Shown here piece after piece: positions 11,808-50,458 of a stretch of DNA of 64,000 nt; position 1 is the stretch's first letter, and the number at the start of each line of letters is the position of its first letter. A program made the translations under genes and the position numbers. The stretch is from Acholoe squamosa. Taxonomy: Eukaryota > Annelida > Polychaeta > Phyllodocida > Polynoidae. The stretch covers positions 55,445,339-55,509,338 of the forward strand of contig OX439043.1 in the NCBI GenBank assembly GCA_949317995.1. The letters run 5' to 3'. The notes below the pieces were generated by a model. It was not told the origin of the DNA and did not search any database. It worked only from the letters and a program-made list of their open reading frames with translations.

Positions 11808-11813
11808 AGTGTC
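11808..11813. repeat. 6-bp target-site duplication of element A (left)
   Basis: AGTGTC immediately before the terminal repeat is repeated exactly at 19664-19669 after the right end. A 6-bp duplication is the hallmark of Polinton/Maverick integration. Confidence 0.93.
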
Positions 11814-11895
11814 AGTAGTATATAGTGTATTGGAATGGGACTATAGCTAACTACAGGATATTACTCATCCGACATGCAGCCAATCAGAGGCCTCC
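11814..11895 (+). repeat. Element A left terminal repeat (homologous to element B termini)
   Basis: The first 49 bp are inverted at 19615-19663. The full 82 bp, including GACTATAGCTAACTA and GCAGCCAATCAGAGGCCTCC, also match both ends of element B with only a few mismatches. This shows the two insertions belong to one family and could be recognised by the same integrase. Confidence 0.92.
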
Positions 11896-12140
11896 ATTTG
11901 GTCATGTGACCCATTGCCATGGCAATATAACCTACTTAGGGGATTAGGGACCACCTCTCAGCCAATCATAGGCCAGCATTCTGTAACCAAGGTAACGTGA
12001 CCTACATAGGGGATTAGCAACCACCGCTTAGCCAATCAGAGGCCAGCATTCTGGTAACCATGGTAACATGACCTAATTAGGGGATAATGCACCTGTCACG
12101 TGACCCCTTGTTTGTAAACAAAGGGGCAGGGCTAATTATG
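11875..12140. promoter_or_regulatory. Subterminal array of CCAAT and CATGTGAC/CACGTGAC boxes
   Basis: AGCCAATCAGAGG or its near-variants occur three times (about 11879, 11960, 12031) within an imperfect tandem unit of about 75 bp (CTAnnTAGGGGATTA...GCCAGCATTCTGTAACC). TCATGTGACC/TCACGTGACC E-box-like palindromes and ATGCAAAT follow. These resemble binding sites for NF-Y, bHLH and octamer factors. Element B's termini carry the same boxes. A role as promoter, enhancer or origin is inferred. Confidence 0.6.
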
Positions 12141-12409
12141 CAAATGAGATACTCCTTAATTCTTTGTGCGTGATGATAATGATAACTTCATTAATCATCT
12201 TTTTTTTTTATCATTTTTAATCAATCATTTTTTCTTTTGTCCGAACAGACCGCAAAGTCTCACTTTGCCAGTGTCACAGTCACTGACTCTCTCCATCATA
12301 CATTGCACTAGTTCGGTTAAATCCAATACTATTTCGGCCAGATATAGGACCTTTGTCTGCATGAATTGTAGATGCTTGAAGCATCCCATTTCCTCTTTTC
12401 CCAAATTCT
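12141..12409. other. Element A, between left end and protease
   Basis: A T-rich tract (12198-12240) and a downstream spacer that includes the 3' flank of the minus-strand protease. No further gene is seen. Confidence 0.5.
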
Positions 12410-12844
12410 TCACATCATCATCATTTCTAGCCTCTCCGACTGGTCACTCAGTTTTGGGTTTTTGCTCATCCGCATGGGGTTTCTTGTTCGACATGCTTTA
12501 ATCAGGAAATGTACGCAATGAGGGCCACAGGTGTCAGCATTAGTGTCTTGGAGTTGAACACGGTTTCTTTTCCACTTGAACGGAGCAGAACACTCCAGGA
12601 AAGCTAAGAACTCTGTGCTCAGCGGAGGTAAGCCGAATGAATTAAAGTAGTACACCTCTTCTGTCCTCGACACGTAAAACGCCACCCAATGATGACCTGG
12701 GAAATGTTGAGGATCCATGTTACTCCCGAAACAAGTGTTCTTGATAGGGTGCTCGGGGATAGTGTCACAAGACAAAACACCTGGGAAATGGTGTTTTGTG
12801 TGAATGTTATCCTTCAACACTTTGTCTATTTCAAGTGTGTTCAT
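12410..12844 (-). CDS. Adenain-like cysteine protease (Polinton PRO)
   Basis: A 144-residue open frame starting MNTLEIDKVL, the usual start of Polinton maturation proteases related to adenovirus adenain (C5 family). These cleave capsid precursors. The catalytic His is in PGHHWVAF (residue 52) and the nucleophile Cys106 is in ADTCGPHC. Gln99 sits seven residues before it, as in adenain. The residue usually Asp in 'FDSYG' is Asn68 here (YFNSFG), an oddity that could weaken the triad. Length is close to normal and no break is seen until a Met-rich tail from (ATC)n. It is the most 3' gene of element A, 14 bp after the capsid remnant. Confidence 0.88.
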   Translation of the reverse strand: MNTLEIDKVLKDNIHTKHHFPGVLSCDTIPEHPIKNTCFGSNMDPQHFPGHHWVAFYVSRTEEVYYFNSFGLPPLSTEFLAFLECSAPFKWKRNRVQLQDTNADTCGPHCVHFLIKACRTRNPMRMSKNPKLSDQSERLEMMMM

Positions 12845-12858
12845 GCACTTTCTTGTCT

Positions 12859-13466
12859 TCAGTTCATGTGGTAGTCTGTGTTGGGATGTCGATCTCGGGT
12901 CAGCTCGATGACGTTGTCGTATACCAAGTAGAGCAGTACCGTTGTGGTCTCCGTCAGCGCCACGCCAAAACTGAGCTCCACCCTCAGCTGGACCGCCTTT
13001 ATAAGGTTCACTCTACACCCGTCATGCGATCTGTCCGGAGTTAAATACAGGGGGAACAGCGTGTAACCGTTCAGGAAATCATTGTAGGAAATGTCGCAGG
13101 AGCGTGAACCCTCGTACATCCCTGTTTCCGTGTGTAGTGCTAGGTACTCACTCACCGCTTCCCTTTTGGTAAGGTTGGGGACGTAGGCGTCGTTCGGCAC
13201 CTAATGGTCATTCACTATCACTTTAAGCGAGTTGACGTTGCAATGTTTCAGCACCTTGCATTCCAGATGAAGGTAACTTTCGTTCAGGTCTGTGTACTCT
13301 TGGGACTTACTGATGGTGAAGTTGATGTTACTCCCATGTACCAAAGAGTTTTTCATTTCTAGCCCGACAAAGGTTTCTTTAGGATAGTAGTTTGAGTTGG
13401 CGCTATGGCATGCAGGTCGGGCTCAGAGAGCGCGCCCTCGCTGCTGTTTTCATGTACGTAAGCTAT
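12859..13466 (-). pseudogene. Major capsid protein (double jelly-roll) remnant, internally deleted
   Basis: Three pieces match the Polinton/adintovirus hexon-like capsid protein. The N-terminal piece (AYVHENSSEGALSEPDL..., then PTQTT) occupies 13360-13466. A first-barrel strand (INFTISKSQEYTDL...) lies at about 13270-13345. The C-terminal barrel (NGYTLFPLYLTPDRS; VYDNVIEL) lies at 12859-13200. Family members run to some 450-500 residues; here there is room for about 200. The middle of the protein is therefore missing, with the first-barrel strand joined almost directly to the second barrel. In addition, the start codon position reads ATA (13464-13466), the first piece ends at a TAG with a frame change (13359-13361), and an in-frame TAG lies at 13201-13203. 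It cannot make a working capsid. Confidence 0.82.
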
Positions 13467-13538
13467 TGTGTTCCCTCTTCACGTTGGTGGAAGACTGACG
13501 CCGGTGACTTCTAGTCCTTTTATTCATAGGTCGCCTCC

Positions 13539-13925
13539 CTAGCGATCGAAAATGTCCCCCCGGCATCTCTTGCAAGAACCGCTTCCCTTTTGAGGAGCTC
13601 GCCTCCGACGTTTGGCCCCCACTTTCTTGGGTGCCGTTTTTTTCCCCGGAGAGATCACTTTACCCACCAGACTCTTTAGAGCACCTACTCCTCTGTTTTT
13701 CACGCTGTTCTTGAAAGTACCTCCCTCCATCATATCCTTGGCCACATCAAAGCGGAACAGAGTTTTCCCCACCTTCTTCAAAAGGGGTGTGGCTGAGCGT
13801 ATGAGTCCTAAGAGGGCGCCACCGAAACCGTGACCATTCTGGAAAGATCCTGCTGTACACGTTGATTCCGTTACTGAACTGAGCGTTGTAGTAATCGGGG
13901 GTCTTCTCAGATGAAGTGTCAACGT
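13539..13925 (-). pseudogene. Virion core/pX-like basic protein
   Basis: The frame contains NGHGFGGALLGLIRSATPLL, an amphipathic or hydrophobic region, then a long Lys/Arg-rich tail (AKRRRRAPQKG). This is the pattern of Polinton 'PX' / adenovirus core-like proteins that condense DNA inside the particle. A typical N-terminus (YYNAQFSNGINVYS) lies just upstream but in another frame, so a one-base frameshift falls near 13852-13865. As it stands, the frame runs on from the penton C-terminus without a stop. It lies between penton and capsid genes. Confidence 0.7.
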
Positions 13926-14724
13926 CACCTCTCCTCTCATGAATGGTACGGAACGGCCAGTTCTGTCTCTTAAGTAGATGCCGACCTTGTCCAACCATTT
14001 GGACTTCAAGGGAAAATAATCCAAATGTTGAAAACTGATAGCTTGCATTTCCCCTTTCCGCTTCTGTCTAGCATAACAGAGGGACGTGCATGTTGCCCAC
14101 TCGTCTGTCTTGAATGGCGTCAGTGTATACGTACACAGAGTACACGTCTCCGAAGGGGTCCATTATGATGAAGCCAGTGGTCGTCGTCACGAAATGGCGC
14201 ACGTTTTTCTCTCCATGTCTTGAACCAACCTCATTTTTCGCCTCTTGTTGGAAGTCATCAGTTATTGCTTGTACAGGGCAGAATTGTGTCAACGTGACGT
14301 ACTTTGACTTCTTCCCAGGTTTCAATATCTGCACCTCCAACTCTTTTTCTAACAGCTCCGGTGTCATTTCGTCGACTAAGTTCTCCTCCGTCCTAGTCAG
14401 AGAATTACTGCTTCTGATGATCTTCTGCAGGTTGATCACTCTGTCCACCTTCTTCCAGTCCACCTCGGGATTTTTCTTGAAGGTTTTTCTCTCGTTGAAA
14501 ACTCTTTTCGCCTCAGCCAGCGAGTTCTTTGTGAGCAGAGGAACGATCTTGATCAAGTCGTCGTCTCACATGTTGCTCCATTCTGTCGGGAGGATGATTT
14601 CACTGAGAACCGCTTCGTGGTCCTCTGATAGGAGGAGGGGTGAGTCGAAGTGGGTTCGAAAAGAGGTCAGAGTGTTCTGAGGGAAATAGTCCATAGAACT
14701 GTTGCTAGGCAGGGTGATGTTCAT
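13899..14724 (-). pseudogene. Penton / minor capsid protein (single jelly-roll), interrupted
   Basis: The N-terminus, ATG at 14724, reads MNITLPSNSSMDYFPQNT and then 'VLSEIILPTEW', the signature start of Polinton minor capsid (penton) proteins. The C-terminus reads YFPLKSKWLDKVGIYLRDRT and then 'TLTLHLRRP', the matching end. Together these span about 275 codons. It is broken by an in-frame TGA (14566-14568), a stop at 14068 and a frame change before 14048. The middle part (14068-14556) is less recognisable. The penton caps the five-fold vertices. The gene follows the integrase by a few bases. Confidence 0.75.
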
Positions 14725-14730
14725 AGCGTC

Positions 14731-15838
14731 CTATGAGATTTTCTTGACAGGAATCCACTCGTTGAACTTGTTGCCATAACCTAGCCAACGTACAAAAGCT
14801 AAGCGTTTGCCCTTGACGGTTTTGTAGTGCAGCACCTTGTCTAGCAGGTAAGTCTTGCCGTAACGACTCTTGGAGACCTCCTCCGGATAAAACACGCCCT
14901 TTATCTCCTCCACGGTGTTGTCTTTCAGCTCGAACCCTCTGCTACCCAAAGTTTTAGCGACGTTGAAAACTTCCTCCTTTCATTTTCCCTTTGTCGAAGG
15001 GTCCTTTAGCCCTCAAAATTCTCACTCTGTCGCCTGGAACGATGACGTTGGTGTTGGAGTGTCGAGGGTCCGTCTTTTTCCATATTTCCTCGATTTGTTT
15101 CTTAGTAGGGAGGTTGTGTCTGTAGAAAACAGTTTAGCTGTTTTCCAGGCTGACGTCAGCAGGCGATATTTTCAACATCTTGTGGTGAGTGCGATTGTTA
15201 GAAGACACCATCTCATTCTGTACGTCTAGGTAGCGATATGTACGCTGGTGTGTGAAATAGCGCCACAGCTTCTCCTTCAGACTTCGATTCAAACGCTTCA
15301 CTAGACTAGCTTTAATGTCGTAGTTTTCGCTGGTGAAAAACTTTATTTCTTTGCTCTTTAGGTGATCTTGGAAGGTCTTGTTGAGAAATTCTTTCCCCTT
15401 GTCTATTTGAACGGAGTGCGGGTGTCTCTCAGCAGTCATTTCCTCGAACGCCTCAGTGACAGCTGGGCCGCCTTTGGATTTGAGGGGAGCCGCCCACACA
15501 TACCTGGAGAAAATGGCGACGGCCATGACCATGTACCGGAACCCGTCGTTGTGAGACGCTAAAGCTTGCATGTCCATCAGATCTAACAGCCACTGTTGAT
15601 CGATTCTCCCGGTTATCGTCTTGTTCCTTGCGAATTTTCTCTGGATGGGTTTATGTTTAGTGTAGGCGTCCACAGATCCCAAGGCGTCTTGGATGAAAGC
15701 CGAGTTTCGGTTGTGGAAATGATGTTTCTGGAGTTTGGTGATGCTGGTGAAACTAGAGGGTGCTTTGACGTCGGTGTACTTAGCCACCAATCGTCTCTTT
15801 TCTTTTTCCTTCTTGGACAGTTTCTTCGGCCTCGCCAT
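14731..15838 (-). pseudogene. Retrovirus-like integrase with C-terminal chromodomain (Polinton INT)
   Basis: The main frame (15134-15838) is the RNase-H-fold core. Asp86 (LLDLMDM) and Asp146 (VQIDKGKEF) are present, but the third catalytic acid, expected 35 residues later, is Lys181 (ASLVKRLNRS). After an in-frame TAA (15134-15136) the reading continues through an SH3-like stretch (VPGDRVRILRAKGPFDKGK). A frame change near 14970-15000 then leads to a chromodomain (FVRWLGYGNKFNEWIP; 14731-14949). The order core, SH3-like, chromodomain is typical for Polinton integrases. The enzyme would insert linear element DNA with 6-bp duplications. This copy is dead by at least three lesions. Confidence 0.9.
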
Positions 15839-15868
15839 CTTGGTGGGTCGGATTTGGAGTACACTTGG

Positions 15869-16089
15869 TCACTTGGGATCTCTTGCTGGAAGTGGTTGTT
15901 TTGTAAACGTTTTCAAAGTGGGGTCATTCAACACTAGATCCAAGTCCCTGTAGATAAACTGTAGCACCTGGTGTAATGCGGCGTTGGGATGAAGACCTTG
16001 TTTTGCCTGTCTGTAGTAATAAGTCATATTGGAGGGTGGGGATACGGCAGTGGCGAAAGAGGAGGGGTTCCTGTTTTCACACTCAACAG

Positions 16090-16139
<50 letters not shown>

Positions 16140-16216
16140 TTAGCTGTGGGGACATCAGGTGGTCCTCGTAATTTCGCGAGCAAGCTCTTGTACTGTTGCT
16201 CCTCGGGGTCCGTCAT
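15869..16216 (-). CDS. Unknown element A protein with polyalanine tract
   Basis: A 115-residue frame: acidic start (MTDPEEQQYKSLLAKL), a polyalanine run of about 20 residues encoded by a GCA/GCT repeat (16081-16139), and a mixed C-terminus (YYYRQAKQGLHPNAALHQVL) that looks like a folded helical domain. I do not recognise the family. It lies between integrase and the membrane-active protein in the virion-gene row, so a capsid-associated role is possible. The trinucleotide repeat is probably variable in length. Confidence 0.55.
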
Positions 16217-16254
16217 CGAGGCAGCTGTGGTGGTGAGGTGTCGAATGAGGAGCT

Positions 16255-16587
16255 CTATATACGGAGAATGCTTTTTATAAGGGGTAAGGCCATGCCTATC
16301 AGAGCCGGAATGAGGAAACTGCCCCTTTGAACCAAGACGTTTCTCTTTCTTTTGATGGTGGTAGCTTTTTTGCTCACCGTCCTCAACATGTCAGCAGATT
16401 CTCGAAGACTTTCCAGTTGGTTCTCGGTGAGCGGTATGTTTCCCTCCAGTAAATTCTGACAGATTTCGCTCAACGTCGTGATCAAATCGTCGCTTCCAGA
16501 GCCTATTAAATGCTCACAATCCTCCGGCAAACACTTTGCCAAGTGTTTAAGGGTGCCGTAATGTCTTCTGAGTCGATGAGTAGCCAT
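16255..16587 (-). CDS. Small basic protein with hydrophobic C-terminus (Polinton late protein)
   Basis: I choose MATHRLRRHYGTLKHL at 16587 as the start, because the earlier in-frame Met adds only a Lys-rich stretch lying within the ATPase gene. The 110 residues read: basic start; two helices around 'LIGSGSDDLITTLSEICQNL' and 'IPLTENQLESL'; basic linker (TIKRKRNVL); and a glycine/leucine-rich hydrophobic end (GSFLIPALIGMALPLI). This is a widespread Polinton/adintovirus protein pattern of unproven function, perhaps membrane-active. It overlaps the 3' end of the ATPase gene by about 40 bp in a different frame and has no breaks. Confidence 0.75.
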   Translation of the reverse strand: MATHRLRRHYGTLKHLAKCLPEDCEHLIGSGSDDLITTLSEICQNLLEGNIPLTENQLESLRESADMLRTVSKKATTIKRKRNVLVQRGSFLIPALIGMALPLIKSILRI

Positions 16588-17299
16588 TACTTTCTCTTTC
16601 TCTTTTTTTGTCTGGCAGAACAAACACGATCTGATCGTCTATGGTCGTCAGGGAGGAGTGTATTCTCAGGTCGTTCGGTGTTGTCTGCTTGAAGTCCAGA
16701 AGCAGGTAAGAGTGAGGACGCTTGAGTTCATGGGTAAATATACTGGAGAGGGCCGACGCCTTGGAGGGAAACACCTGACGAGACAGAGCGCCTATTTGTC
16801 CCATGTCGCGAGGGTTCTTAAAAATGATCATGTAGTGAGCGTTCAGACTCATAGTTCGAAATTCGGGTGATTTCTGGAATAGGTTCTGAGTGATATATAT
16901 GACGCTCATGTTCCAGTGATAGGAATATTTGGTGAAGATGTCGGCTACCACTTGTTGATTGGAAGTGCTCATCAGATCGTCCAATATCAGTAGTGTGTGT
17001 GGTCGAGGGGTGGTCGATTCTTCTTCTTCTTCTCCCGCTATGTCTTCTTTGCTGGAAAGACCTCTGAATTCCACTCCGTAGTCTTTTTGCATTTTTTCAA
17101 AGAGGGGCTGCCACTCGCCGTAATGGTAAAAGATCTTTTCCACCGGCGGTGTGAACAAATTGTTAACGTCGCTCAGAAATTGATTCACCAAGCGTGATTT
17201 TCCACAACCAGACGGACCGCTGATGATGCAACTGAAGGGTCCTTGTAGTCGGGGATCAAAATCTATTTCGGTGAAGGTCGTGACTTTACCACTCAACAT
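16547..17299 (-). CDS. DNA-packaging ATPase (FtsK/HerA superfamily, Polinton ATP)
   Basis: An intact 250-residue frame. Walker A is GPSGCGKS (residues 28-35); Walker B is LLILDDL (about 103-109); 'VIYITQN' follows with the sensor-type Gln-Asn. These features and the size match the A32-like packaging ATPases of Polintons, adintoviruses and large DNA viruses, which pump genomes into capsids. The start MLSGKV lies after a spacer with palindromic hairpins. The C-terminus overlaps the next gene. A stretch of Glu at about 90-95 is encoded by a GAA run. No disablement is visible, unlike most neighbours. Confidence 0.93.
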   Translation of the reverse strand: MLSGKVTTFTEIDFDPRLQGPFSCIISGPSGCGKSRLVNQFLSDVNNLFTPPVEKIFYHYGEWQPLFEKMQKDYGVEFRGLSSKEDIAGEEEEESTTPRPHTLLILDDLMSTSNQQVVADIFTKYSYHWNMSVIYITQNLFQKSPEFRTMSLNAHYMIIFKNPRDMGQIGALSRQVFPSKASALSSIFTHELKRPHSYLLLDFKQTTPNDLRIHSSLTTIDDQIVFVLPDKKRERESNGYSSTQKTLRHP

Positions 17300-17520
17300 T
17301 TTTCAGCGGTCATTATGGGTATAGTAGGAGTAGTAGTAGTAGTAGAAGTAGTAGAAGAAGTGGTGGTGGTAACTACAGTCGTGGTGACGGTGAGGTTTTT
17401 CTCAGTCGAACGCTTGGTGACGAGTGGTTGTCTGGAAAGAGTCGTAGCGAGTTTTATTCTAACTTGTTAAAAAAAAAAAAAATAAAAAAATAAAGGGAGG
17501 TAATCTTTTTTTCCTCTTTG

Positions 17521-17580
17521 GGCAAAGCTTGTCGCTTTGCCTTTTTCTTTACCTATTTGGGCAAAGCTTGTTGCTTTGCC
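17521..17580. terminator. Two tandem GGCAAAGC hairpins followed by T/A tracts
   Basis: GGCAAAGCTTGTCGCTTTGC (17521-17540, C at 17541) and its near copy at 17560-17580 both fold into 8-bp-stem hairpins with 5-nt loops, next to homopolymer runs. They lie between the ATPase and the upstream gene. Element B has a related hairpin (GGCAAGC...GCTTGCC) followed by T9 in its terminal repeat. A transcript-end or polyadenylation hairpin is a reasonable guess. Confidence 0.5.
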
Positions 17581-17857
17581 TTCCTCTCCTCTTTAACATA
17601 ACTGTATCCAAAAAGGTATCAGGGGTAACAACACAGTGGTAACAAATACAAACTGGAATGTAATCTTTAAAGTAGTACGTCCCCTTCTTCAATTCGGTCT
17701 CATTGTAAAAGGCCGGATAACAGGTGACGACTTCGAAACGATTCCAGATCGTGTTCACGTCGGCAACCACGCGCACCCACTGAGTGGGAGCAGCGATTAC
17801 CCCCAAATAACCTTGTCGAATCTTTTCATACTGCTTATTCTCACCATATTTGAACAC
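17549..17857 (-). CDS. Unknown protein with Y-x-GVIAA domain, shared with element B
   Basis: A 102-residue frame, ending inside the hairpin region. The segment QGYLGVIAAPTQWVRVV ... IWNRFEVVTC lines up, with one gap, with the C-terminal part of the element B protein at 42648-43235 (YPGVIAAQ ... TWYRSSVDFTC). The shared core is Y-x-GVIAA, W-x-R, V, T-C. I do not recognise the family. The true N-terminus may lie further upstream, because the next frame (17936-18406) ends 78 bp before. This is one of the few protein-level links between elements A and B. Confidence 0.45.
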   Translation of the reverse strand: MFKYGENKQYEKIRQGYLGVIAAPTQWVRVVADVNTIWNRFEVVTCYPAFYNETELKKGTYYFKDYIPVCICYHCVVTPDTFLDTVMLKRRGRQSNKLCPNR

Positions 17858-17935
17858 CCTTTATTTTCATGAAATGCCCAACGAGTGGGTGCACTGAGGA
17901 TGGTTATCAAACAGTAATGGAGTAAATTCTTTTCT

Positions 17936-18406
17936 TTAAAGACAGCTTTCGGCCATACCCCTATTTTTTCTTTTTTTTACTACTTCTTCTACTGTTTCTA
18001 CTCCTTTTGCTGCTGCAACTGCTGCTGCTTCTACTGCAGCTGCTACTGCTGCTGCTGCCGAAGAAGAGCCGCTACTTCTTCTATTACTACTACTACTACT
18101 ACTACTACTTCTACTACTACTCCTTTCCCTGGTGATGCTACTTCTTCTTCTTGTGCTCTTGCTATTTCTATCACTACCATTACTTTTGGTACTACTGCTG
18201 CTGATACTGGCGCTGCTACTAAATTCCTCACCTTCGCTTTTCATTAAATTATTCATCACCTTAAAAGAGACGTGAGACTGAAATATGTGCTGATCTCTAT
18301 GTTTAGGTAAGAAAATAGATGGGGTTTCCCTAATTGTTCTTTTAAAATCTCGCTCCATCTCAAGTGGAATATTTAAAAAAAGAGTGAAAATAAAATAAAA
18401 GCTCAA
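17936..18406 (-). CDS. Ser/Arg/Ala low-complexity protein
   Basis: The frame carries a folded-looking start from an internal Met at about 18358 (MERDFKRTIRETPSIFLPKH), then a long Ser-rich and Arg/Ser-rich tract, a polyalanine tract and a basic end (VVKKRKNRG). The low-complexity parts are coded by TAC/TGC trinucleotide repeats (17990-18125), so the frame is easily shifted and its length variable. The family is not recognised. The basic SR-like middle suggests nucleic-acid binding. It may be the upstream part of the gene that ends at 17549. Confidence 0.4.
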   Translation of the reverse strand: MSFYFIFTLFLNIPLEMERDFKRTIRETPSIFLPKHRDQHIFQSHVSFKVMNNLMKSEGEEFSSSASISSSSTKSNGSDRNSKSTRRRSSITRERSSSRSSSSSSSSNRRSSGSSSAAAAVAAAVEAAAVAAAKGVETVEEVVKKRKNRGMAESCL

Positions 18407-18603
18407 AAAGAAAATAATAAAGAGAGTGATGGACTCAGTTCAAATTTCCTCCTAGATTGTAGGTGGTAAACAGGTGGCGAGGTATCTACAGCGACGGTGG
18501 TGGTGATGGTGGTGGTGGCAGCAGCAACAGCAGCAGCAGCAGCAGCAGTGGTAGAAGTGGTGGTGGTGTCAAAGGAGACAGCGAACGTGTTCTGCCTTTC
18601 CAA
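18403..18603 (-). CDS. Thr/Ala-rich leader protein, possibly a first exon or N-terminus
   Basis: Begins MERQNTFAVSFDTTTTSTTA, only about 15 bp downstream of a TATA box, and is made mostly of Thr and Ala from a GCT/ACC repeat. It ends by overlapping the next frame by 4 bp. It may be the N-terminus of the same product as 17936-18406 after a frame change. Element B's polymerase-side leader protein is similarly Ala/Thr-rich. Confidence 0.4.
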   Translation of the reverse strand: MERQNTFAVSFDTTTTSTTAAAAAAVAAATTTITTTVAVDTSPPVYHLQSRRKFELSPSLSLLFSF

Positions 18604-18617
18604 GAAAAATCAGGGCT

Positions 18618-18647
18618 CTTTATATAGTTGAGAGAATGATCTAATCC
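18618..18647 (-). promoter_or_regulatory. Element A leftward promoter: GGATTA + TATATAAAG
   Basis: On the minus strand, CTATATAAAG (18618-18627) is preceded by AACAGGATTAGATC (GGATTA at 18642-18647). The same pairing, GGATTAAA about 14-20 bp before TATATAAAG, occurs twice in element B. It would drive the leftward virion genes. Confidence 0.65.
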
Positions 18648-19434
18648 TGTTTTCACCTAGATCCTTTCACCCCACATCAAGGGGATAAAATGCTTTTGGA
18701 ATAAGGGTATCAGGTGGGATAAACAGGTGTAACAACTGTGATAATTACCTTGATGCGACTTGCATGTATAAGGGATTATGGATCTTTAAAAAAACTTACA
18801 AAAACTACGGGGGGTGGTTAACAGTAGGGGGAAAATATAATCTTGTAACAGAGAAGTCAAAGTGTTTTAATTGGATCACTCACTAGACAAGGTGTGGGGT
18901 GCGCAGCAGCAGCAGCGCGCGTGTCACCAAAAATGGTGGACACGTGCACACCTCCCCGCCTACCTACCTACCTACCTACCTACCTACCTACCTACCGTAG
19001 TACCGTGCTTATAAGGCACGCCCCCCAACTTGAGGGAATGCTATAAAGTGTATCTGCAAGCTTTATTTTTTGGACATTTCAGTAGTGATTTATAGTAACC
19101 CCTACCTATAAGGTACACTCCTAAACTTCAGGGGTCGCACCTAGCCTATAATACACGAGGTACTATGGCGCCTACCTACCTACCTGTCTATGCGTCACAG
19201 GAAAATATCCCAGGGTGCGTATCTGCCACTCTGTCTGTGACTACAAAGGCGCATGTGCGGTAAGTAGATTAAGTCTAACGAAATTAACAAGTTAATCCCC
19301 CTTCCTCCTGCTCCTCTTGTTGCCATGAGGAAGAATCTCTGTGACTATGTGAATCAGATCCTTTAAGTCTTTTATCTTTTCCCTCTGGGACTGACCACAC
19401 TTAATGATCTTAGGGATCCGTGCCTACAGCAAAC
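18648..19434. promoter_or_regulatory. Element A central non-coding region with (CCTA)n tract
   Basis: No gene. It contains a (CCTA)n tetranucleotide run (18959-18996; again at 19172-19186), a CAG run (18905-18915), and two loosely similar blocks (TATAAGGCACG / TATAAGGTACA). AAGGTAATTATCACA, seen on the minus strand near 18735-18755, resembles AAGATAATTATCACA at 48332 in element B. The (CCTA)/(CCTG)n tracts of element B sit in its rightward leaders, so this may be the relic of a rightward gene's leader. Confidence 0.5.
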
Positions 19435-19500
19435 GGCAGGTGAAAATCAAAACAGACAGATACCCTACCGAGTGAAGGTCTCTGTGAAAATGGGATTAAA
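19435..19500. promoter_or_regulatory. Shared 66-bp box (also twice in element B)
   Basis: The block running from GGCAGGTGAAAATCA to GGGATTAAA, with CTACCGAGT and the CTCTGTGA core, matches 48088-48152 and, less well, 47882-47948 in element B after reversal. By eye roughly three quarters of positions agree over its full length. It lies at the same place relative to the polymerase-arm leader in both elements. It may be an enhancer, origin or packaging signal. Confidence 0.7.
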
Positions 19501-19555
19501 TCTCTTTTAAATCTTTGATCTATTTAAAACCACAGAGAGGCTTATCTCGGAAGGG

Positions 19556-19612
19556 TACATAAGGGAGAGTGAAATTTTGTTCCCTCACACCTTCTCTGCC
19601 ACCTTCATCATG
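19556..19612 (+). promoter_or_regulatory. Relic of polymerase-arm promoter and leader, ending at an ATG 3 bp from the TIR
   Basis: TACATAA (19556-19562), AAGGGAGAGTGAAATTTTGT and CTTCTCTGCC...ATG (19610-19612) align with the element B leader on its minus strand (TTATATAA at 47816-47823 through ATG at 47765-47767). In B this leads into the acidic protein/polymerase arm. In A only six codons remain before a TAG inside the terminal repeat. The coding arm is therefore absent from the start codon on. Confidence 0.7.
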
Positions 19613-19614
19613 GA

Positions 19615-19663
19615 AATATCCTGTAGTTAGCTATAGTCCCGTTCCGATACAATATATACTACT
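19615..19663 (-). repeat. Element A right terminal repeat (49 bp)
   Basis: Reverse complement of the first 49 bp of the element (CTGTAGTTAGCTATAGTCCC ... ATACTACT). Similarity to the left end stops abruptly at 19615, whereas element B's repeats run for more than 600 bp. The junction therefore looks like a deletion endpoint. Confidence 0.92.
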
Positions 19664-19669
19664 AGTGTC
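19664..19669. repeat. 6-bp target-site duplication of element A (right)
   Basis: AGTGTC, identical to 11808-11813. Confidence 0.93.
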
Positions 19670-42441: not shown

Positions 42442-42647
42442 ACACATTTCCACTTTTTTATTTGTTATACATGTCATATTTATGTACACAGTTCACTTTA
42501 TTTGTTATTTTCATATTTTTCATTTCGTTCAATTATATTTACAAGTCAGTGAATACAAGTCGACATTGTCTACATAACATAGTTGAATATCGGAGAGGAA
42601 CATGACAAAACTCGCACATTGAGATGTGTACATTCAACTTTTGTTTC
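42442..42647. other. Element B spacer downstream of the unknown gene
   Basis: T-rich 3' flank between the terminal repeat and the 42.6-kb gene. Nothing else seen. Confidence 0.5.
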
Positions 42648-43235
42648 TCATAATTCAGACTCTATATGGTAATTTTGGTGTACAACTTTGGAGCAAGTGT
42701 CCTCTTGAAATGAGGGACAGTTGTAAGCCATATTTCCCATCCACATCTCATCGATATTACAAGTAAAATCCACTGAAGACCTATACCAAGTACTCCATTC
42801 AGTTTGTCTGGACATGATACTTCTCAGTTGAGCAGCTATTACACCAGGGTAAGGAACTTCACTACACAACATTCGTTAGACACACTCTTGACAAAAGGAG
42901 TTGAATGTTTCTTTTGAGCAATGACACAACTTTCTAAAGAAGTCTGAGTTCTCTTCTAGAAGAGAAAGCAAGGCGCTGACCGACTCTAACGTATACCGCC
43001 TTTTGATGAAAGTACTTGTGTTCTCGATATGAAATTGATATACTGCTATAGCTCTATCTGTGATTGTACCAACCACTCTTTGAAATACATTTTCGAAACA
43101 CACACTTAATGAATCAAATACACCATTAGAAGTGAACACTTTATGAACACCTTGGTTTAACAACTGTGCCATAAAGAACAACACATCTGATGCATCTATC
43201 AATTCCCAAGTGAAAATGGGACCGCAAGTACACAT
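42648..43235 (-). pseudogene. Unknown element B protein with C-terminal Y-x-GVIAA domain, one stop
   Basis: I take ATG at 43235 (MCTCGPIFTWELIDASDV) as start; the frame also extends upstream without a Met. It is continuous for about 195 codons except a TAA at 42876-42878. The C-terminal part (PYPGVIAAQL ... TWYRSSVDFTC) resembles the element A frame at 17549-17857. The protein is rich in Cys and aromatic residues; the family is not recognised. It lies downstream of the polymerase in the same orientation. Confidence 0.5.
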
Positions 43236-43259
43236 TGTCTTGTTATTTTTTTTCAACAC

Positions 43260-43397
43260 TGATACACGAGGGATGTAGTAAGCCGGTGGACGTAGTAGAT
43301 GAAGTTAATACAACAACAAAAGGGTATTATCTCACCGGCTTGTCTACATTTTTTTTTTTTTAAGTTATTTAATTTTTTTTTCATTTTTTTTTCATTT
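43260..43397. other. T-rich spacer
   Basis: Poly-T tracts between polymerase and the downstream gene; nothing else seen. Confidence 0.5.
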
Positions 43398-46300
43398 TCA
43401 TAATTTTAATGGACTCGTCATCACACCATCAGAATGTAAGCGACGCTTCACATATAAGTAACTCAGTCCCTTTTTCTCTATTGTGTAAGTGTGCATTTTG
43501 TTTTCTATTACTTTGAAATTTGTATTAACAGTATGGATAGTTTTTCGATTTAAAAGAACATCCAAGAAGTCTATGGGTTCTTGAACATTTTGTTTTTTCA
43601 TGAGACCCTGTGCACTCCATTTTTTTTTTTATTTTCTTTCACCTATTGAGTCTTTATCGTAGCAAATGTAAGTCTTTGAGTTGAGACTTAGAATTCCATC
43701 ACCCTCCAACTCGGATTTGAAAAGACCGGGAGTTCTTTGATCATGAACATAATGACTCTGACAACAAGCAAGGGGGACCCATTCTTGCACACCTTCGGTT
43801 TTTACGAAAGCGTCTCAGGTCGGGTTTCACGAGTTTGTCCAATGTTTTCCCGCTGTAAAGACTGTCAGTGTCAATTTGACGAAGAGCGTAATCGCACCGA
43901 TCGATAAATTTATCCAAAAAGTCGAACGTGAACTCTAACATTTTCAACTTGGGGTACTGGTACACCATGAACCCTTTTTGAATAGGGAGGTTGTTCTTGA
44001 CTGTTTTCGGTTGCAGTTCGACTTCAAAGAGATCTGGGGTCAACTCTGCACCCTTCTTGTATCGCCATGAATTGGTCAATAATTCAAAGGTTCGACCACT
44101 AGTGTATTTCACTGTGGTGTGTTTTTCTTTGTTGCAAATTGTTTTACCATACGTGCTGTTTCCCATTAACTTGTAACAGTCTGAGAGAATTTGCTCCTCT
44201 GCGTTTACATCACCATGTCTTCACGCCGCGGTTACTTCGTCTGCGAAACCGGCGAAGGATCTTTTAGGAAAGTATTCTATGAACATCTGCACTTTGGTGA
44301 CTATTAAACCGTGATCCAAATACCACTTAAGGAGAGGTGTCCCCAAGAGAAATGTTTTTTCCATGGTAACTACCTATCAAGGATCTCTGAGGAGCATTCA
44401 ACAGGTTTTTGTTGTTTGCAAAGTCTGACATGTGAGTTCCTATGTCAGATTTCGAAATGGTCACGTTCTTAAAAATAGAAGTCATTTCCTCGAAGTATTT
44501 ACTGAGTGAGGACGGGTGGTAATGTCCACCTGAATCTATGGAAAATTATGGAAGGTCCCCCGACTAGATTTTTTTGAATCAAAGAGTGGAGGTGAGAGTC
44601 GAACTGGTTGAAAGGTTACGAACGGTGTCTCTGTGCTCTGAAAAAGGAACCGTAAAGTTATACCTGGAAGGGAAATTCCGTCTTTGAACATGTCGATGTT
44701 GTGATCCCTGAAAAATTTAGCGTGATTATTCAGCGCCTCTATGAAGGGTTTCACATCTTTGTTGTTGTAGTAGATCAAGTAATCTCTAACCAAACTTTTT
44801 CACATTTGGCATAGTCAGATTCAGACATCTTGGTGCCAGTCAGTTTGCTGTCAAATGCAGATCTTGGTGGAAGTGTTCTGTTTTCCAGTTTCCTGGTAGA
44901 CGTCATCCATTCGTAAGGAAAGTGACCTTTGTGCTGAATTCTGGTGAAAGCTAGTAAATAATTCGCGTAGTTATAACCAGGTGCCAAATAGTTTACTATG
45001 TCCAAGAAAACAGTGTGCTGAGTGTAAATCGCCAAGTATTGGTTACTAATCTTTATGATGCTGAATTCTTCGTTCTTTCAGTCTTTGGAGGGAAGAACTC
45101 GTAAAGCTGTACTTTGATCAGATTTAAGTCATAACGCCCCGAATTGAATCCTACGACCGGAACTTGGCGGAGATATCTCAAAAGTATCTTCTTCAGTTCA
45201 ACTAAAGGGGGTCTTTTCCGAGTTTCAGTGAAGTCGCTGCTGGGAGGACAGAACGCCTCCTCTAGGCGGAGAGCTTCATCTATCGTCTCGTCTAACTTCA
45301 CTAATGTCGGCCAGTAAAGTTTTAGCGTTGCTTCCCCGATGACCTTGGCGGTGTCATTTATGTAATTCAAAACTCTACCCAACAAGGGGTCGGAATTTGC
45401 GTCAGATTGTCTCACAAAGCACACCGGACCTTTGTGTCCTGGAAAGTCGGATGCGACGCTAGCTGACAGAGGTGCATGTTCCCACAGGACTGTCACATGT
45501 TCGGTCGACGGCTGTTTGGCCGGTCTAAAGAAAGCTTCGAAACCGAGGGCGATTTTGTAAGGGTACATTTTCGAATTTCCGTCAGAGGAAAAATGGAAAA
45601 ATCTGCTAGCGCTTCCAAAATCGTTTTTGAATTTTGGTAGATCCCATCTATGTACTTTAAGGCGACTTTTCTGCAATCGGAAAGCTGGTTCCTGTGTCTT
45701 TTCAGTAAGAACTTAGTCGTGAAAGCCGACTTACACTCGGGACATTCATAGACATTTGGTTTTTCAGATTCTGACCTCACTTTACGGGTGGTGTAGACCG
45801 CTATTTGTATATCGAACAAGCTCTCTAACGTCGGTAAGTCACTAATGATCACGCCTGGAAAGGATTCGGGTTTCGCAGTGGAATCGAACTGACGTAACAA
45901 TTTTGAAGCGTGTTTGCCGGTCTTGTATAAGTGAAAGGATATGCAGCAAAAGACGCATAACTTGTCCTTGTCGGGAAAATCTAACACACCCACTCTTTTT
46001 TTAGCTGACCCGATTGGGTAACCCTGCCCCCTGTGGGGAATTCTCTGGGCCCCATGTAAATGCAAACGTTCAAATTGGTGGGAAAAAGAACTTTCTACTT
46101 GGTGTCAGAGTCGCAAAGTTTCTGTACTTCTTCGGAAGTGTTTTTCATGAGAGAGAGGAAGTCTTCCAAAGTTTCTGAATTAGTTATGGTGGGGAGGGGC
46201 TGTAAAAGAGTTGCGTTGTTTTGGGAGGCGTGAAAGTAGCGTAGTTTGTCTCTGTTTTCCCTGTGTTGTAATATTAACCCTACTGACAATCCCACTTTGT

Positions 46301-46643
46301 ATCTGAATCTTTGCGCGATGTGAATCTGACGCATGGTATCTACAGCGTCACCGGTTGGTAGTCTTAAGTTTGTCACACCCAAGTGAGCCCCGTGAGCCCT
46401 GACTCCTGTTTGAATTGCGGGCCAATTTTTCGTGAACATTTCCTCACCCTGCGGTATAGTGCGTATTATCAGAGGAATAGTCACTCCGAGCAGAGATTCA
46501 TGTCGACAGGTAATTTTTTTGCAATTTCCTTCGCCGCATAGAGGACAAAATCTAGGGATCGCATTACATCTTTCCACGTGCCTCTCGTAATTGTACACCC
46601 TTTTAAAATTCTTGAAACACTTTTCACACATATATTGAGCCAT
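43398..46643 (-). pseudogene. Protein-primed family B DNA polymerase (Polinton PolB), broken
   Basis: Pieces in order: an N-terminal C2H2-like finger (CEKCFKNFKRVYNYERHVERC without its last residue, 46095-46643); a second finger (YECPECKSAF...HRNQLSDC, about 45660-45760); the exonuclease region with VPVVGFNSGRYDLNLIK (about 45110-45160); FLDIVNYLAPGYNYANYL (about 44940-45010); 'RDYLIYYNNKDVKPF' (44750-44790); a palm part (SIFKNVTISKSDIG; LLNAPQRSLIGS; about 44270-44480); motif B MGNSTYGKT; motif C QIDTDSLY (43741-44166); and the typical C-terminus (RRLHSDGVMTSPLKL, 43398-43601). The frame changes at least five times. The stretch that should hold palm motif A (D-x-x-SLY/ALYL type) and a neighbouring insert, expected between about 44540 and 44480, is missing. 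The enzyme would have replicated linear DNA from a terminal protein; this copy cannot. Confidence 0.9.
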
Positions 46644-47376
46644 TTTTACTGAGTTTCCGTACCTCCTCTTGGACGTCAGCGATGTTCGCTATTAGCTTGA
46701 GTAGTGCGTTAGGGCTGAACCTTACTTCCCTGGTCGGTGTTGAGGTGCCCTTTATGGCGCTGTAGCATTCCTTGGACAACCTAACCCTGTCAAGCCAGAC
46801 CTCTAGCTTCAAACTATCGATGAAGAACTCCAATCTGGGGACTGTGGAAGGTAATGGTGGTAATGGTGGTGGTGGTGGTAGTTCACATTTCACTACCGAT
46901 TCTTTCTTCTTGGACGCCTGACCGTTGCCACTCTTGCTAAACCTCCTCTTGATACCCATAGAGGGTTTCAAAGGAGGAAGAGAAGGACCATCAGTGAGAG
47001 CTGAATCAATAGCAGAACCAGCAACAGGAGGAGCGCCCGCGTCGCTATCTCGTGACTTCTTGGAAGAGGATAACCACACGCCGTCAGCCGTGGAAGTCGA
47101 GGGGAGAAGAAAAAACTCGCTCCGACTCTGCTCGACATCGGTGATCGCTGGTGGATAGCAGTACCAATTGGTTGTTAGAGAGTTCACGATAGCGGTGGTG
47201 AGTAGATCTGGTGATCTTTGAGCAACCGCTGGAGAAATCATCAACTCCTCCTCTGTTTCCTCCTGCTCCTCATCATCCTGCTCCTCTTCTTCCTCTATTC
47301 CTACCACGTGCTGGGTCTGCTCATCTTTATGAGTCTCCAGATGATGTGTGTCACTGTAACCGTCAGTGTTTGCGCA
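46624..47376 (-). pseudogene. Acidic protein with nuclear-localisation-like motif, upstream of PolB
   Basis: The open frame overlaps the polymerase start by 20 bp. From its N-terminus it has a His/Gln patch, a Glu/Asp run (EEEEEQDDEEQEETEEE), a Ser/Pro-rich middle, a basic motif (GIKRRFSKSGNGQASKKK), a proline run (PPPPPLPPLP) and a folded-looking end (FFIDSLKLEVWLDRVRLS; LLKLIANIADVQEEV). No ATG opens the frame, so its start probably lies in the low-complexity region upstream after a frame change. The family is not recognised. Its position just before PolB makes a replication role (for example a terminal protein) conceivable but unproven. Confidence 0.5.
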
Positions 47377-47767
47377 TTAGCAGTAGCAGCACCAGCACGA
47401 CCAACCGCAGCACCAGCACCAGCACCAGCGGTAGTAGTAGTAGTAGCACTTACATCGGCAGTGGTAGCACTAGTTGTAGCAGCAGGAGCGGGGGTATAAA
47501 ACAGTGGTGGCTAGTAAGGAGACTGTCCGTCAACAGTAGTGACGTTGTTATCAGCAGCAGTAGCAACAGGGGTAGTAGCAGCAGCAGCAGCACCCATAGC
47601 AGCAGCAGCACCCTAGTAGCAGCAGCACGTTGGTCGTAAACAGGAGCAGCTGCGGTATCATCTTTAGCAGCAGCAGCAGCAGCAGCATTAGGAGAAGATA
47701 AAGAACTCTTGGTTCTACTTGTCATCTTCCTTCAGAGCTACAGCTTAGTCAGTGTTCGTCTACTCAT
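47377..47767 (-). pseudogene. Ala/Ser/Thr-rich N-terminal region made of trinucleotide repeats
   Basis: From ATG at 47725 the frame reads MTSRTKSSLSSPNAAAAAAA and then slips into Leu runs. A parallel frame reads Ala/Thr (TTPVATAADNNVTT). GCT, ACT and GGT repeats dominate 47370-47700. It is probably the start of the 46624-47376 protein, broken by slippage. A separate upstream ATG (47765-47767) opens only nine codons. Confidence 0.4.
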
Positions 47768-47815
47768 GGTGAGGGAAGCAGAGAAAGTGTGAGTGAATGA
47801 AATTTTCTCCCTTCC

Positions 47816-47823
47816 TTATATAA
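47816..47823 (-). promoter_or_regulatory. TATA box of the leftward polymerase arm
   Basis: TTATATAA lies about 50 bp before the first ATG on the minus strand. The sequence from here to the ATG is matched by 19556-19612 of element A. Confidence 0.65.
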
Positions 47824-47881
47824 GCCTCTGGAGATAAGCTTCTTACTGCAGTTTTAATAGATGAAAGGGAAAATTGACATC

Positions 47882-47948
47882 TCTAATCCTGTAGTCACAG
47901 AGTCCCTTACTCAAAGAAAGGAGACCTATACATCTAATTTCACCTGTC
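47882..47948. promoter_or_regulatory. Shared regulatory box, element B copy 1
   Basis: CTAATCCTGTAGTCACAGAG ... ATTTCACCTGTCC, a diverged copy of 48088-48152 and of element A 19435-19500. A GGGAAGATAAACAATAGGAG / GGTGAAACAAACCATAGGGG tail follows both B copies, so B carries a tandem duplication of about 205 bp. Confidence 0.6.
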
Positions 47949-48087
47949 CTCCACAGGGAAGATAAACAATAGGAGCATCCAGATGAAAACTTCACTCCAC
48001 TCTTAGGTCGTCAAAGGGAAGGTGGTCCAGATCAAAAAGAGTTCCAGCTGGATCAAAGTCGGCTTTTGATATCTTTTAGAAAAGAAC

Positions 48088-48152
48088 TTTAATCCTATGA
48101 TCACAGAGATCCTTACTCGGTAGGATATCTATAAATCTGATTTTCACCTGCC
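48088..48152. promoter_or_regulatory. Shared regulatory box, element B copy 2
   Basis: TTTAATCCTATGATCACAGA ... TTACTCGGTAGGATATCT ... TTTTCACCTGCC closely matches the reverse complement of element A 19435-19500 over its full length. Confidence 0.7.
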
Positions 48153-48516
48153 CTCCACAGGTGAAACAAACCATAGGGGGATCCAGATGAAAGTTCGTCT
48201 AAATAGGATAAGAAAACTTCAAAGAGTAGATGATCTCATTTACACACCCCCTGTTAAAGGGAGGGTGTAAAAATTAAGAAATCTCATAACACCTTAATGA
48301 GTGACCACGCCTTACACCTGTAAAGCGGATTAAGATAATTATCACAACTCCTTTTCACTTGTTTAATGATATTTTAAAGTAATCACCCATAATCTGACTA
48401 AATACACTTGTCACAGTGTCTTTTCCTCCAGTTTGATGTCAACAGATCCAAAGGCTCACGCTGATAAGACGCTAATCAAAAAAGGTAAAGGTGGTGGGAG
48501 TATCCAGCTGGAAATA
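48153..48516. promoter_or_regulatory. Element B central non-coding region
   Basis: No gene. It holds ATCCAGATGAAA repeats and AAGATAATTATCACA (48332-48346), which is like element A near 18740. It lies between the divergent arms. Confidence 0.45.
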
Positions 48517-48539
48517 GGATTAAATCACCCTATATAAAG
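48517..48539 (+). promoter_or_regulatory. Rightward promoter 1: GGATTAAA + TATATAAAG
   Basis: CCAGCTGGAAATAGGATTAA then TATATAAAG (48531-48539), about 140 bp before the death-domain gene ATG. The same module is at 49474-49506 and, inverted, in element A at 18618-18647. Confidence 0.75.
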
Positions 48540-48610
48540 AAGCCCAATTTCTCTTGAAAGGACATATCACTGCTGACCACTTCGACTACCGCGCCTACCA
48601 CCTGCCACTG

Positions 48611-48611
48611 T

Positions 48612-48645
<34 letters not shown>

Positions 48646-48647
48646 AC
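48611..48647 (+). repeat. (CCTG)n tetranucleotide tract in the leader
   Basis: TGCC repeated about nine times between promoter 1 and the death-domain ATG. The second rightward gene has (CCTA)n at 49596-49614 in the same position, and element A has (CCTA)n at 18959. Confidence 0.9.
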
Positions 48648-48676
48648 CGACCCCCTTTGAAGATTTTGCAGACAAG

Positions 48677-49372
48677 ATGAGTCTTGAAACTCAACCTCCC
48701 TCCCCGTCGTCTCCCTCTCTTGACGTATGTGAAGTGAGTGTACGGGATGACAACTGTATACCGTGCGAGATCAATTTGAGATATAATGATCGTTTGCTTC
48801 ATGAAATAGGAAGGCAGTTATTTGGAACTTAGAAGAAATTGGGAGTCTATTTGGAGATTCCCTATGATCGTCTGGAGTCGATGGTCGTTATCAAGACGCC
48901 GCAGGGCATGCATATGGAGATGTTCAAAGCTTGGTAGTCTAAAACTTCGCCTCATGCCAGATGGGGACAACTCCACCATGCCTACGTCAGTGTTCGTCAA
49001 GCAGACCTGTTTTATGAGACGCAGAACTTTTTCGAGAAGTACAAGCTGGATTACAACAAACCTGACCCGCTTTTAATGGAAAGGTACTTTATCACTATGT
49101 CTGAATCTCTATCCAGGGAGTGGAGAGATATGGGAGTGTATTTAGAATTGACGACTGATAAGCTAGCTAGCATTGTTCAACAACCGGAACAAGATCTCTC
49201 TCTCCAAGCCTTCAAAGTATTGAAAATGTGGGAAGCTGAACCCACCAGTACACATCATCAGCTCATTCGAGTGCTAATGGATGACATGATGAGGGCTGAC
49301 GTGGCCAGATATATATTGCGTTACTTTGAAAACAAAGACAGAGAGAGGAAAGGTGGAGGGCACTCTCTATAG
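48677..49372 (+). pseudogene. Tandem death-domain protein, two in-frame amber stops
   Basis: One frame from MSLETQPPSPSSPSLDV to HSL-stop (231 codons) with TAG at codons 52 (48830-48832) and 87 (48935-48937). The first death domain starts at about residue 42 (RLLHEIGRQLFG, KKLGVYLEIPYDRLESM, FKAW, WGQLHHAYVSV). The second is at about 139-212 (SLSREWRDMGVYLELTTDKL, QAFKVLKMWE, LIRVLMDDMMRADVARYIL). The heptad hydrophobics and Trp positions fit the six-helix death-domain fold. Such viral proteins usually block or divert host apoptosis or Toll/NF-kB signalling; which one is not shown by the sequence. It has its own TATA promoter and a (CCTG)n leader. It was probably captured from a host and is now a pseudogene. 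Confidence 0.75.
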
Positions 49373-49483
49373 TTTAAGGTAAGCTTACATGAAGGAGGTG
49401 TGCACCACGGGGGTCTAAATCTTAAGTCGCTACACAGGAACGTGGTGGTCGTGATGAAAACGGGGAGTAAGCAGCTGGAAAGC

Positions 49484-49506
49484 GGATTAAACACCACTAT
49501 ATAAAG
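49484..49506 (+). promoter_or_regulatory. Rightward promoter 2: GGATTAAA + TATATAAAG
   Basis: GCAGCTGGAAAGCGGATTAA followed by TATATAAAG (49498-49506), a close copy of promoter 1; it drives the small terminal gene. Confidence 0.75.
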
Positions 49507-49630
49507 CACTCACGTCACGTCTGTGGTGTCTCATTTACCACCCTGCCTGGCACTGGTACGTGCACAACCGACACACAGTTATCACCACTGTCGTCACCTA
49601 CCTACCTACCTACCAAGGTGCTACAAGAAA

Positions 49631-49867
49631 ATGGTGCCCAAGTACATACTTTTCACCGATTTATCCAAGAGACTCAACACAAATTTTTGTGGACTAAACC
49701 CCGTGCTTTGGCAGAGAAACTCGCTAACATTTATAACAAATAAAAAGTGGAAATGTGTGATGCAGTTTCTATTGTATTTCTTACCTTATTATGTAAGTTT
49801 TATTTTTTCCAGTAGACCCGCCCCTACCCCAAGGGGCGGGTCTTTGGTTAAAATAGTTAACCCCTAA
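49631..49867 (+). CDS. Small unknown protein at the element B right end
   Basis: ATG at 49631 follows the promoter 2 TATA and a (CCTA)n leader. The frame (MVPKYILFTDLSKRLNTNFC ... FLLYFLPYYVSFIFSS) has a hydrophobic, possibly membrane, segment and runs into the terminal repeat. An overlapping frame with a more protein-like helix (RFIQETQHKFLWTKPRALAE) ends at 49743 at an AATAAA, so a frameshift just after the start is possible. The family is not recognised. Confidence 0.4.
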   Translation: MVPKYILFTDLSKRLNTNFCGLNPVLWQRNSLTFITNKKWKCVMQFLLYFLPYYVSFIFSSRPAPTPRGGSLVKIVNP

Positions 49868-50452
49868 AAAAAAACAACCTAAAAAAGGGCCCCCCCAAGG
49901 CCCCCCACCCCAAAGGGCCCCCCACCCCAAGGGTTTTCTCCAATTTTTTTCTTTTTTGGCAAGCTTTCAGCTTGCCTTTTTTTTTATTCATAAAAAAATA
50001 TCTCACTATAAGTCACACTCTCATCTACATAATAAACCATCACACCTCTTTATGCTAATAAGATCGTGCAACTACTTCTACTACTACTACTACTACTACT
50101 TGCTGCATACAGCTGATTGTATGACGTGTGGATGGACAGCTAACCAACCAGAGGTCTCCATTTTCGTAGAAAATTTGAAATAAATAAAGTCACGTCACCA
50201 AATTTCAAATTTCCCACCAAAATGCCAACCTCTGATTGGACCATTCAAATTAGGGTCACGTGACCATTTTGAATTTCCTGCCAAAAGGGAAGGTTCTGAT
50301 TGGTCCATTTTGGCGCCACACCATGGGGGTCTAGGACACGTGACCCCCCATTTGAATTTCCCACCAAAAGGGAGGCCTCTGATTGGCTGCATCTCGGATG
50401 AGTAATATCCTGTAGTTAGCTATAGTCCTGTTCCGTTACACTATATACTACT
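49815..50452 (-). repeat. Element B right terminal inverted repeat (638 bp)
   Basis: Reverse complement of 41714-42441 with indels; see that entry. It contains a (TAC)n tract, CCAAT and CACGTGAC boxes, and the terminal ATATACTACT. Confidence 0.93.
49958..49976. terminator. GGCAAGC hairpin followed by T9
   Basis: GGCAAGC-TTTCA-GCTTGCC is a perfect 7-bp stem followed directly by TTTTTTTTT. The left repeat has a degraded copy (42298-42315). It resembles the GGCAAAGC hairpins at 17521-17580 and may mark transcript ends of the rightward genes. Confidence 0.5.
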
Positions 50453-50458
50453 ATCACC
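50453..50458. repeat. 6-bp target-site duplication of element B (right)
   Basis: ATCACC, identical to 41708-41713. Confidence 0.93.

Follow-up and report, generated by a model that had tools for sequence, protein, structure and literature searches.

Complementary Polinton-like element lineages in the genome of Acholoe squamosa, possibly the two segments of a bipartite element

Polintons (Mavericks) are regarded as self-synthesising, one-piece elements and as a source of several DNA virus families. In the polynoid annelid Acholoe squamosa, a 64-kb stretch of contig OX439043.1 (positions 55,445,339 to 55,509,338; hereafter, the window) carries two Polinton-like insertions, A (11814-19663; 7,850 bp) and B (41714-50452; 8,739 bp), which lie 22 kb apart and have complementary gene sets. 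The original prediction, made from the window alone, proposed A and B as possible segments of a bipartite Polinton or adintovirus, with a division of labour between segments packaged together. Analysis of the window and of the host genome supports two old, complementary element lineages; judging from gene content and ends, A and B are probably broken copies of these lineages, belonging to one Polinton/adintovirus-like family and representing either a bipartite virus in two segments or two partners that obligately depend on each other.

According to the relevant parts of PMC8097293, intact vertebrate Mavericks are 12.7-24.6 kb long, with inverted repeats of 46-1,447 bp and with core genes that include ppolb and int in one element. 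The A. squamosa elements resemble these Mavericks in their (AGT)2//(ACT)2 ends, their 6-bp target duplications and their core genes (ppolb, atp, pm, pz, int, mcp, pw, Mcp and pro in PMC8097293, as far as its pertinent sections go), but differ in that PolB and the remaining core genes are found on different elements. Two further one-piece Polinton-like genomes, contigs L002 and L005, are binned in Limnohabitans MAG20, presumably as eukaryotic or viral contamination. Both have the gene order ATP-PM-PZ-INT-mcp-PW-MCP-PRO, with PZ assigned by position only, which is the order of A and its relatives (type A); unlike type A, they carry PolB directly upstream of the ATPase gene on the same contig, in L002 as two overlapping frames. 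Members of the Bidnaviridae are not known to have a Polinton integrase. Portions of PMC11071296 describe bidnaviruses as having a PolB of adintovirus/Polinton descent and, in some members, several segments, features similar to those considered here; by contrast, bidnaviruses have a parvovirus-type capsid and helicase and single-stranded DNA (PMC11071308, PMC11071296, in the passages concerned). The same portions of PMC11071296 attribute to adintoviruses a chromodomain integrase, PolB, and hexon- and penton-type proteins, which have likenesses here (the capsid proteins as named by gene order), and define adintoviruses by PolB and hexon in one virus, whereas here these are on separate elements. 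Finally, nine of 72 Polintons in PMC4028283 lack MCP, protease and ATPase, like the lineage of B (type B), although the section of that paper on these elements reports neither a partner element with the absent genes nor a loss of integrase. A search of the open literature, mostly at the level of abstracts, found no bipartite Polinton, which does not establish absence from print. IMG/VR yielded no confirmed relatives for the integrase, an integrase alignment, P0045, P0009, the terminus, the ATPase or a PolB piece as queries; a PHROGs search gave nothing useful, and solved-structure searches gave no useful match.

Both insertions show the Polinton/Maverick combination of terminal inverted repeats starting AGTAGT and perfect 6-bp target duplications, and because the flanking duplications differ (AGTGTC and ATCACC), A and B are separate insertions. 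Over the first 86 bp, mismatches number seven between the left ends of A and B, six between the left end of A and the right end of B, and seven between the two ends of B; the termini thus agree between the insertions, as originally proposed. The inverted repeats measure 49 bp in A and about 0.74 kb in B. The two arms in B are identical at 599 of 655 aligned positions, with 189 extra columns gapped in one arm, and the insertion of B is therefore old. Beyond the ends and short simple repeats, the only DNA shared between A and B is a single promoter-like stretch (A 19435-19612 against B 48152-47765, on the opposite strand), which scored 64.4 as compared to at most 28.3 in 60 control segments. The combined length of A and B, 16.6 kb, had been noted as the size of one Polinton; this sum is not evidence, since A in the window is shortened, without one arm and part of the capsid gene, and undeleted type A elements are longer.

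The genes of A were named by comparison with contigs L002 (13.4 kb) and L005 (12.7 kb), in which PolB, ATPase, protease and integrase are backed by Pfam. The names PM, PZ, PW, penton (mcp) and MCP are assumed from gene order as described in PMC8097293. The features of A are as follows.

11808-11813: left target-site duplication, AGTGTC
11814-11899, plus strand: left terminus, 79-80 of 86 bases common with B
12410-12844, minus strand: adenain-like protease, open frame of 144 amino acids (Peptidase_C5 0.0012, below the Pfam cut-off; 1.5e-18 to the L002 protease)
12859-13478, minus strand: remnants of the major capsid protein (MCP) gene, named by gene order, with an in-frame stop and about 235 of about 430 residues gone
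13539-14730, minus strand: minor capsid (penton) and PW genes, broken frame, named by gene order
14731-15838, minus strand: rve integrase with chromodomain, with a stop, a frameshift and Lys in the conserved column that we take to be the catalytic Glu
16255-16638, minus strand: PM gene (1e-6 to the L002 PM)
16547-17299, minus strand: packaging ATPase, open frame of 251 amino acids (Pox_A32 / Adeno_IVa2; 1.5e-41 to L002/L005)
19435-19612, plus strand: remnant of promoter, 5' untranslated region and ATG, homologous to B 48152-47765
19615-19663, plus strand: right terminus, 49 bp, brought up against the promoter remnant by a deletion private to this copy
19664-19669: right target-site duplication, AGTGTC

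By matching to L002/L005, A thus contains ATP, PM, INT with a chromodomain, mcp, PW, MCP remnants and PRO. The integrase matches at 1e-49 (chromodomain 5e-12, with a Pfam chromodomain score of 6e-4 that lies below the cut-off), and the rve integrase with chromodomain, a Polinton/Maverick hallmark, is found in type A only. PW (1.6e-7) and the C-terminus of MCP (4e-10) also match, while penton is weak (1e-3 to 1e-5). MCP is recognisable at about residues 4-30 and 320-423 only, of a full length of 431-433, with the stop between the two pieces. As regards the jelly-roll identity of the capsid proteins, the capsid-position pieces of type A match L002/L005 counterparts that are themselves without a Pfam match; in L005 this applies to the MCP, penton (mcp) and PW proteins alike. 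No PolB probe matched in A. Of the gene set first proposed for A, the integrase, ATPase, protease and (as named by gene order) penton genes and the absence of a polymerase (by these probes) were thus borne out, whereas the capsid gene is gutted and not intact.

Insertion B has the following features.

41708-41713: left target-site duplication, ATCACC
41714-42441, plus strand: left inverted repeat
42648-43304 (probe 42879-43304), minus strand: Bacc3 gene, about 50% identical to the type A version
43398-46688, minus strand: family B DNA polymerase (PolB), putatively of protein-primed type, with several frame breaks, ordered motif words and homologues P0045/P0046
46624-47767, minus strand: start of the leftward transcription unit, upstream of PolB
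47765-48192, minus strand: promoter region, shared in kind with type A elements
48938-49372, plus strand: death-domain gene (Pfam Death 3.5e-7)
49815-50452, plus strand: right inverted repeat
50453-50458: right target-site duplication, ATCACC

The polymerase was identified by words that resemble assumed patterns for ExoII, motif B and motif C and that stand in the correct order on the minus strand; over all six reading frames, the window contains one motif B word, two motif C words and three ExoII words. PolB pieces from B in the window matched neither a Pfam polymerase nor the PolB of L002/L005, a profile comparison of exonuclease-region pieces with the L005 PolB gave a probability of 4, and a fold model of such a piece was useless (mean predicted local distance difference test score of 36). 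The L005 PolB (DNA_pol_B_2 3.8e-46), however, matches inside the gene in four of eight PolB loci sampled elsewhere in the genome, with a best value of 1.5e-7. A PolB of putatively protein-primed type, another Polinton hallmark, is carried by type B alone. No type A gene probe matched in B, and the sole match between open frames of B and L002/L005 covers 31 residues on the other strand (E 0.008) and was taken as chance. The original description of B as an element with PolB and without integrase, ATPase, protease or capsid gene therefore stands, with the polymerase gene broken and its words in order. The death-domain gene of type B copies may perhaps encode a modulator of cell death.

The host assembly (1.48 Gb, 63 contigs) was sampled by terminus and by PolB. 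The search with the A terminus scored the best 40 of 1805 candidate places, and 20 stretches were sampled, corresponding to 18 elements other than A in the window; several of these stretches end at 10 kb, short of the far end, so that the whole element is in view for only some. Capsid/integrase-module genes were present in eight of the 18 elements (L016, L018, L020, L022, L027, L028/29, L033 and L034/35), with an integrase match in all of these except L027. PolB was present in three (L021, L024 and L026), while L023 has the type B death gene and promoter with no PolB match, L032 has a type A Bacc3 alone, and five (L017, L019, L025, L030 and L031) have no core gene. None of the 18 carries PolB together with the capsid/integrase set. 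A second sample comprised eight loci among the best 150 PolB matches (ranks 2, 20, 38, 56, 74, 92, 110 and 126); no type A gene was found in any of these eight stretches, and the neighbours detected were those of B, i.e., Bacc3 in six, the promoter in five, a terminus in five and the death gene in four. Between types, no PolB match at E<=0.01 was found in 11 type A stretches and no capsid-module match in 12 type B stretches. Full-length elements with these termini that join PolB and integrase, the outcome that the original prediction named as decisive against itself, were thus sought and not found among the 18 and eight sampled elements, nor was PolB found with a hexon-like capsid gene, the adintovirus combination, in any sampled element. 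Elements with both ends in view include, for type A, L034/35 (13.9 kb, target-site duplication TACATT), L022 (7.4 kb, duplication matching at 5/6 positions) and L029/28 (17.1 kb, on C18, duplication matching at 5/6 positions), and, for type B, the complete L038 (8.9 kb, duplication ATTATC).

One alternative is that A and B each arose from a one-piece Polinton by internal deletion, independently of each other and with breakpoints that are unrelated. A was at first read as a PolB-deletion copy because its promoter and ATG are fused to the terminus by a private deletion, while the promoter of B leads to PolB; the short word ATGAGTA, common to the start of B and the terminus, fits such an event. 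Truncated copies do exist: PolB pieces with matching 6-bp target duplications lie in L026 (6970-9900, 2.9 kb) and L021 (4076-9900, 5.8 kb), both probably internal-deletion derivatives of type B. Moreover, vertebrate Mavericks are as a rule degraded in the account given by parts of PMC8097293, and MCP, protease and ATPase are jointly missing from the nine Polintons noted above in the cited section of PMC4028283. In type A elements L018, L022 and L028, which do not have the window deletion, this promoter is followed by Bacc3 and next by the terminus with no PolB, within at most 1.6 kb in L018 and L028; in L033, the promoter also leads to Bacc3, the stretch stopping before that end. The missing PolB is therefore a property of type A, and the reading of A as a PolB-deletion copy was rejected. 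The longer type A elements L034/35 and L028/29 likewise have no PolB by any probe, with simple repeats between promoter and Bacc3 in the former and, in the latter, open frames resembling those of long interspersed nuclear elements (LINE-like, judged by eye) along with a 768-amino-acid frame of no assigned identity (L028 1644-3947). None of the sampled stretches other than A in the window showed the full promoter-terminus junction of that copy. Nor is the capsid deletion of A a general feature, as L016, L018, L029 and L033 match far more of MCP.

The Bacc3 gene, present in both types, provides a measure of their separation. Seven type A and nine type B copies were compared; five of the type A copies were typed by an integrase in the same stretch, L032 by Bacc3 alone and L044 by an inferred integrase listed about 5 kb away, while all nine type B copies are accompanied by PolB. 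Bacc3 splits by type with support of 1.000, with mean identities of 0.81 within type A (20 pairs), 0.72 within type B (36 pairs) and 0.50 between types (60 pairs). This split, with about 50% identity between types, indicates two old lineages and not fresh deletions from one parent. The ends are sorted less by type than Bacc3 (median terminal mismatch of 0.047 among type A copies, 0.093 among type B copies and 0.081 between types), and a strong Bacc3 split with weakly sorted ends is the pattern to be expected of long-separated segments that have to be recognised by the same proteins. Two independent deletion derivatives, the alternative raised with the original prediction, are consequently disfavoured: with two recurring gene sets, a type split at full support and no parent with both sets found among the elements examined, we regard this origin as very unlikely.

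Linkage of PolB and integrase was also assessed across the genome, using the best 150 of 2143 PolB candidates and the best 150 of 3687 integrase candidates, and random shifts for which some contig sizes were rounded or guessed. Between the two lists, no integrase lies within 12 kb of a PolB (shift mean 0.40), one pair lies within 20 kb (shift mean 0.61; 140 of 300 shifts reach one) and four pairs, that of the window included, lie within 60 kb (shift mean 1.87; 36 of 300 reach four). If each PolB adjoined an integrase and listing were independent, at least about six pairs (150 x 150 / 3687) would be expected, as compared to the zero found. A weaker control for linkage comes from the sampled stretches, in which neighbours of the same element do get detected. 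Candidates for a joint element were rejected in three cases: a pair on C8 at 14.9 kb has a type A Bacc3 and a right terminus between the genes; the PolB at C15:3483335 is separated from L016 by the protease-side end of that element, with its terminus, and is about 7.5 kb beyond this end; and an integrase-like match in the PolB stretch L041 belongs to a Ty3/Gypsy-like retroelement, as judged by eye from translations. Separately, three equal-score integrase copies (C13:50440059, 50446008 and 50451965) follow one another at even intervals of about 5.95 kb, in the manner of a tandem array.

Several observations weigh against a bipartite element. Both A and B are broken copies in the window, and type A ends are nearer each other (0.047) than to type B ends (0.081). 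The linkage lists favour copies like those of the window, and no integrase of the sampled type A stretches is among the best 150; many more copies must therefore exist, and the linkage test is a modest one. A close pair outside the lists was found, the above PolB at C15:3483335 being about 11.6 kb from the L016 integrase. The genome also contains integrases of another clade, which share 47% identity with that of A and have open frames, in four copies (C10:56504134, C12:36839371, C17:20421907 and C10:37306011), and a complete helper with divergent proteins of this kind could exist. Such a hidden helper is the main rival explanation: A and B would be non-autonomous satellite lineages that owe their mobility to a third Polinton with compatible ends, complete in itself but rare, divergent or lost. 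Polintons usually have PolB and integrase on one DNA, as in L002, L005 and, in the portions of PMC8097293 on intact elements, vertebrate Mavericks. On the other hand, satellites need none of these genes, yet type A keeps capsid, protease, ATPase and integrase and type B keeps a polymerase, and an element with PolB and integrase was not seen among those examined. We thus consider the satellite explanation unlikely, albeit one to be taken seriously.

In light of these findings, we lean towards a bipartite Polinton, i.e., a double-stranded DNA virus or transposon in which polymerase and integrase-capsid segments would be inherited as separate, mutually dependent lineages, separated for long enough that a shared gene has fallen to about 50% identity while the same ends were kept, and with about 150 or more independent integrations of each in one genome. 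As expected for a bipartite virus, the gene sets found here are complementary, and the DNAs that bear them share their ends. The type B polymerase would copy A and B alike from the common AGTAGT ends; the ATPase and capsid of A would package both types, for which type A would also supply the maturation protease; and the integrase of A would insert both, giving the 6-bp duplications. The common ends would hence be signals for shared machinery. Since 6-bp duplications flank type B elements, they suggest that an integrase acted on these elements although B encodes none. From sequence, we infer this mutual use of proteins along with packaging and a virion stage. As for the original prediction, its complementary gene sets are upheld, as two lineages, by the census and the Bacc3 split, while we can only infer that A and B are segments of a single virus and are packaged together. 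Alternatively, type A may be self-sufficient by means of a host or unrelated viral polymerase, type B being a parasite or an unrelated PolB transposon that shares its ends; however, AGTAGT ends fit protein-primed copying, which needs such a polymerase (an end-motif argument found in part of PMC8097293), and the ends of A match those of type B, which makes this alternative very unlikely.

Elsewhere in the window, a Ty3/Gypsy-like retroelement lies on the minus strand at 54833-58918, with zinc knuckle, aspartic protease, reverse transcriptase, RNase H and H2C2 across several frames. A reverse-transcriptase-like open frame of 247 amino acids is found at 7977-8717 (E 0.0015, below the Pfam cut-off), and a long stretch of degenerate 20-bp tandem repeats covers 37406-40601.

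If the bipartite organisation is true, the stable split between a polymerase segment and an integrase-capsid segment would mean that a genome of the Polinton group can become divided, a parallel being those bidnaviruses with a PolB of this descent whose genomes are divided. A single genome, with hundreds of insertions that can be dated, would then allow tests of how divided genomes evolve.

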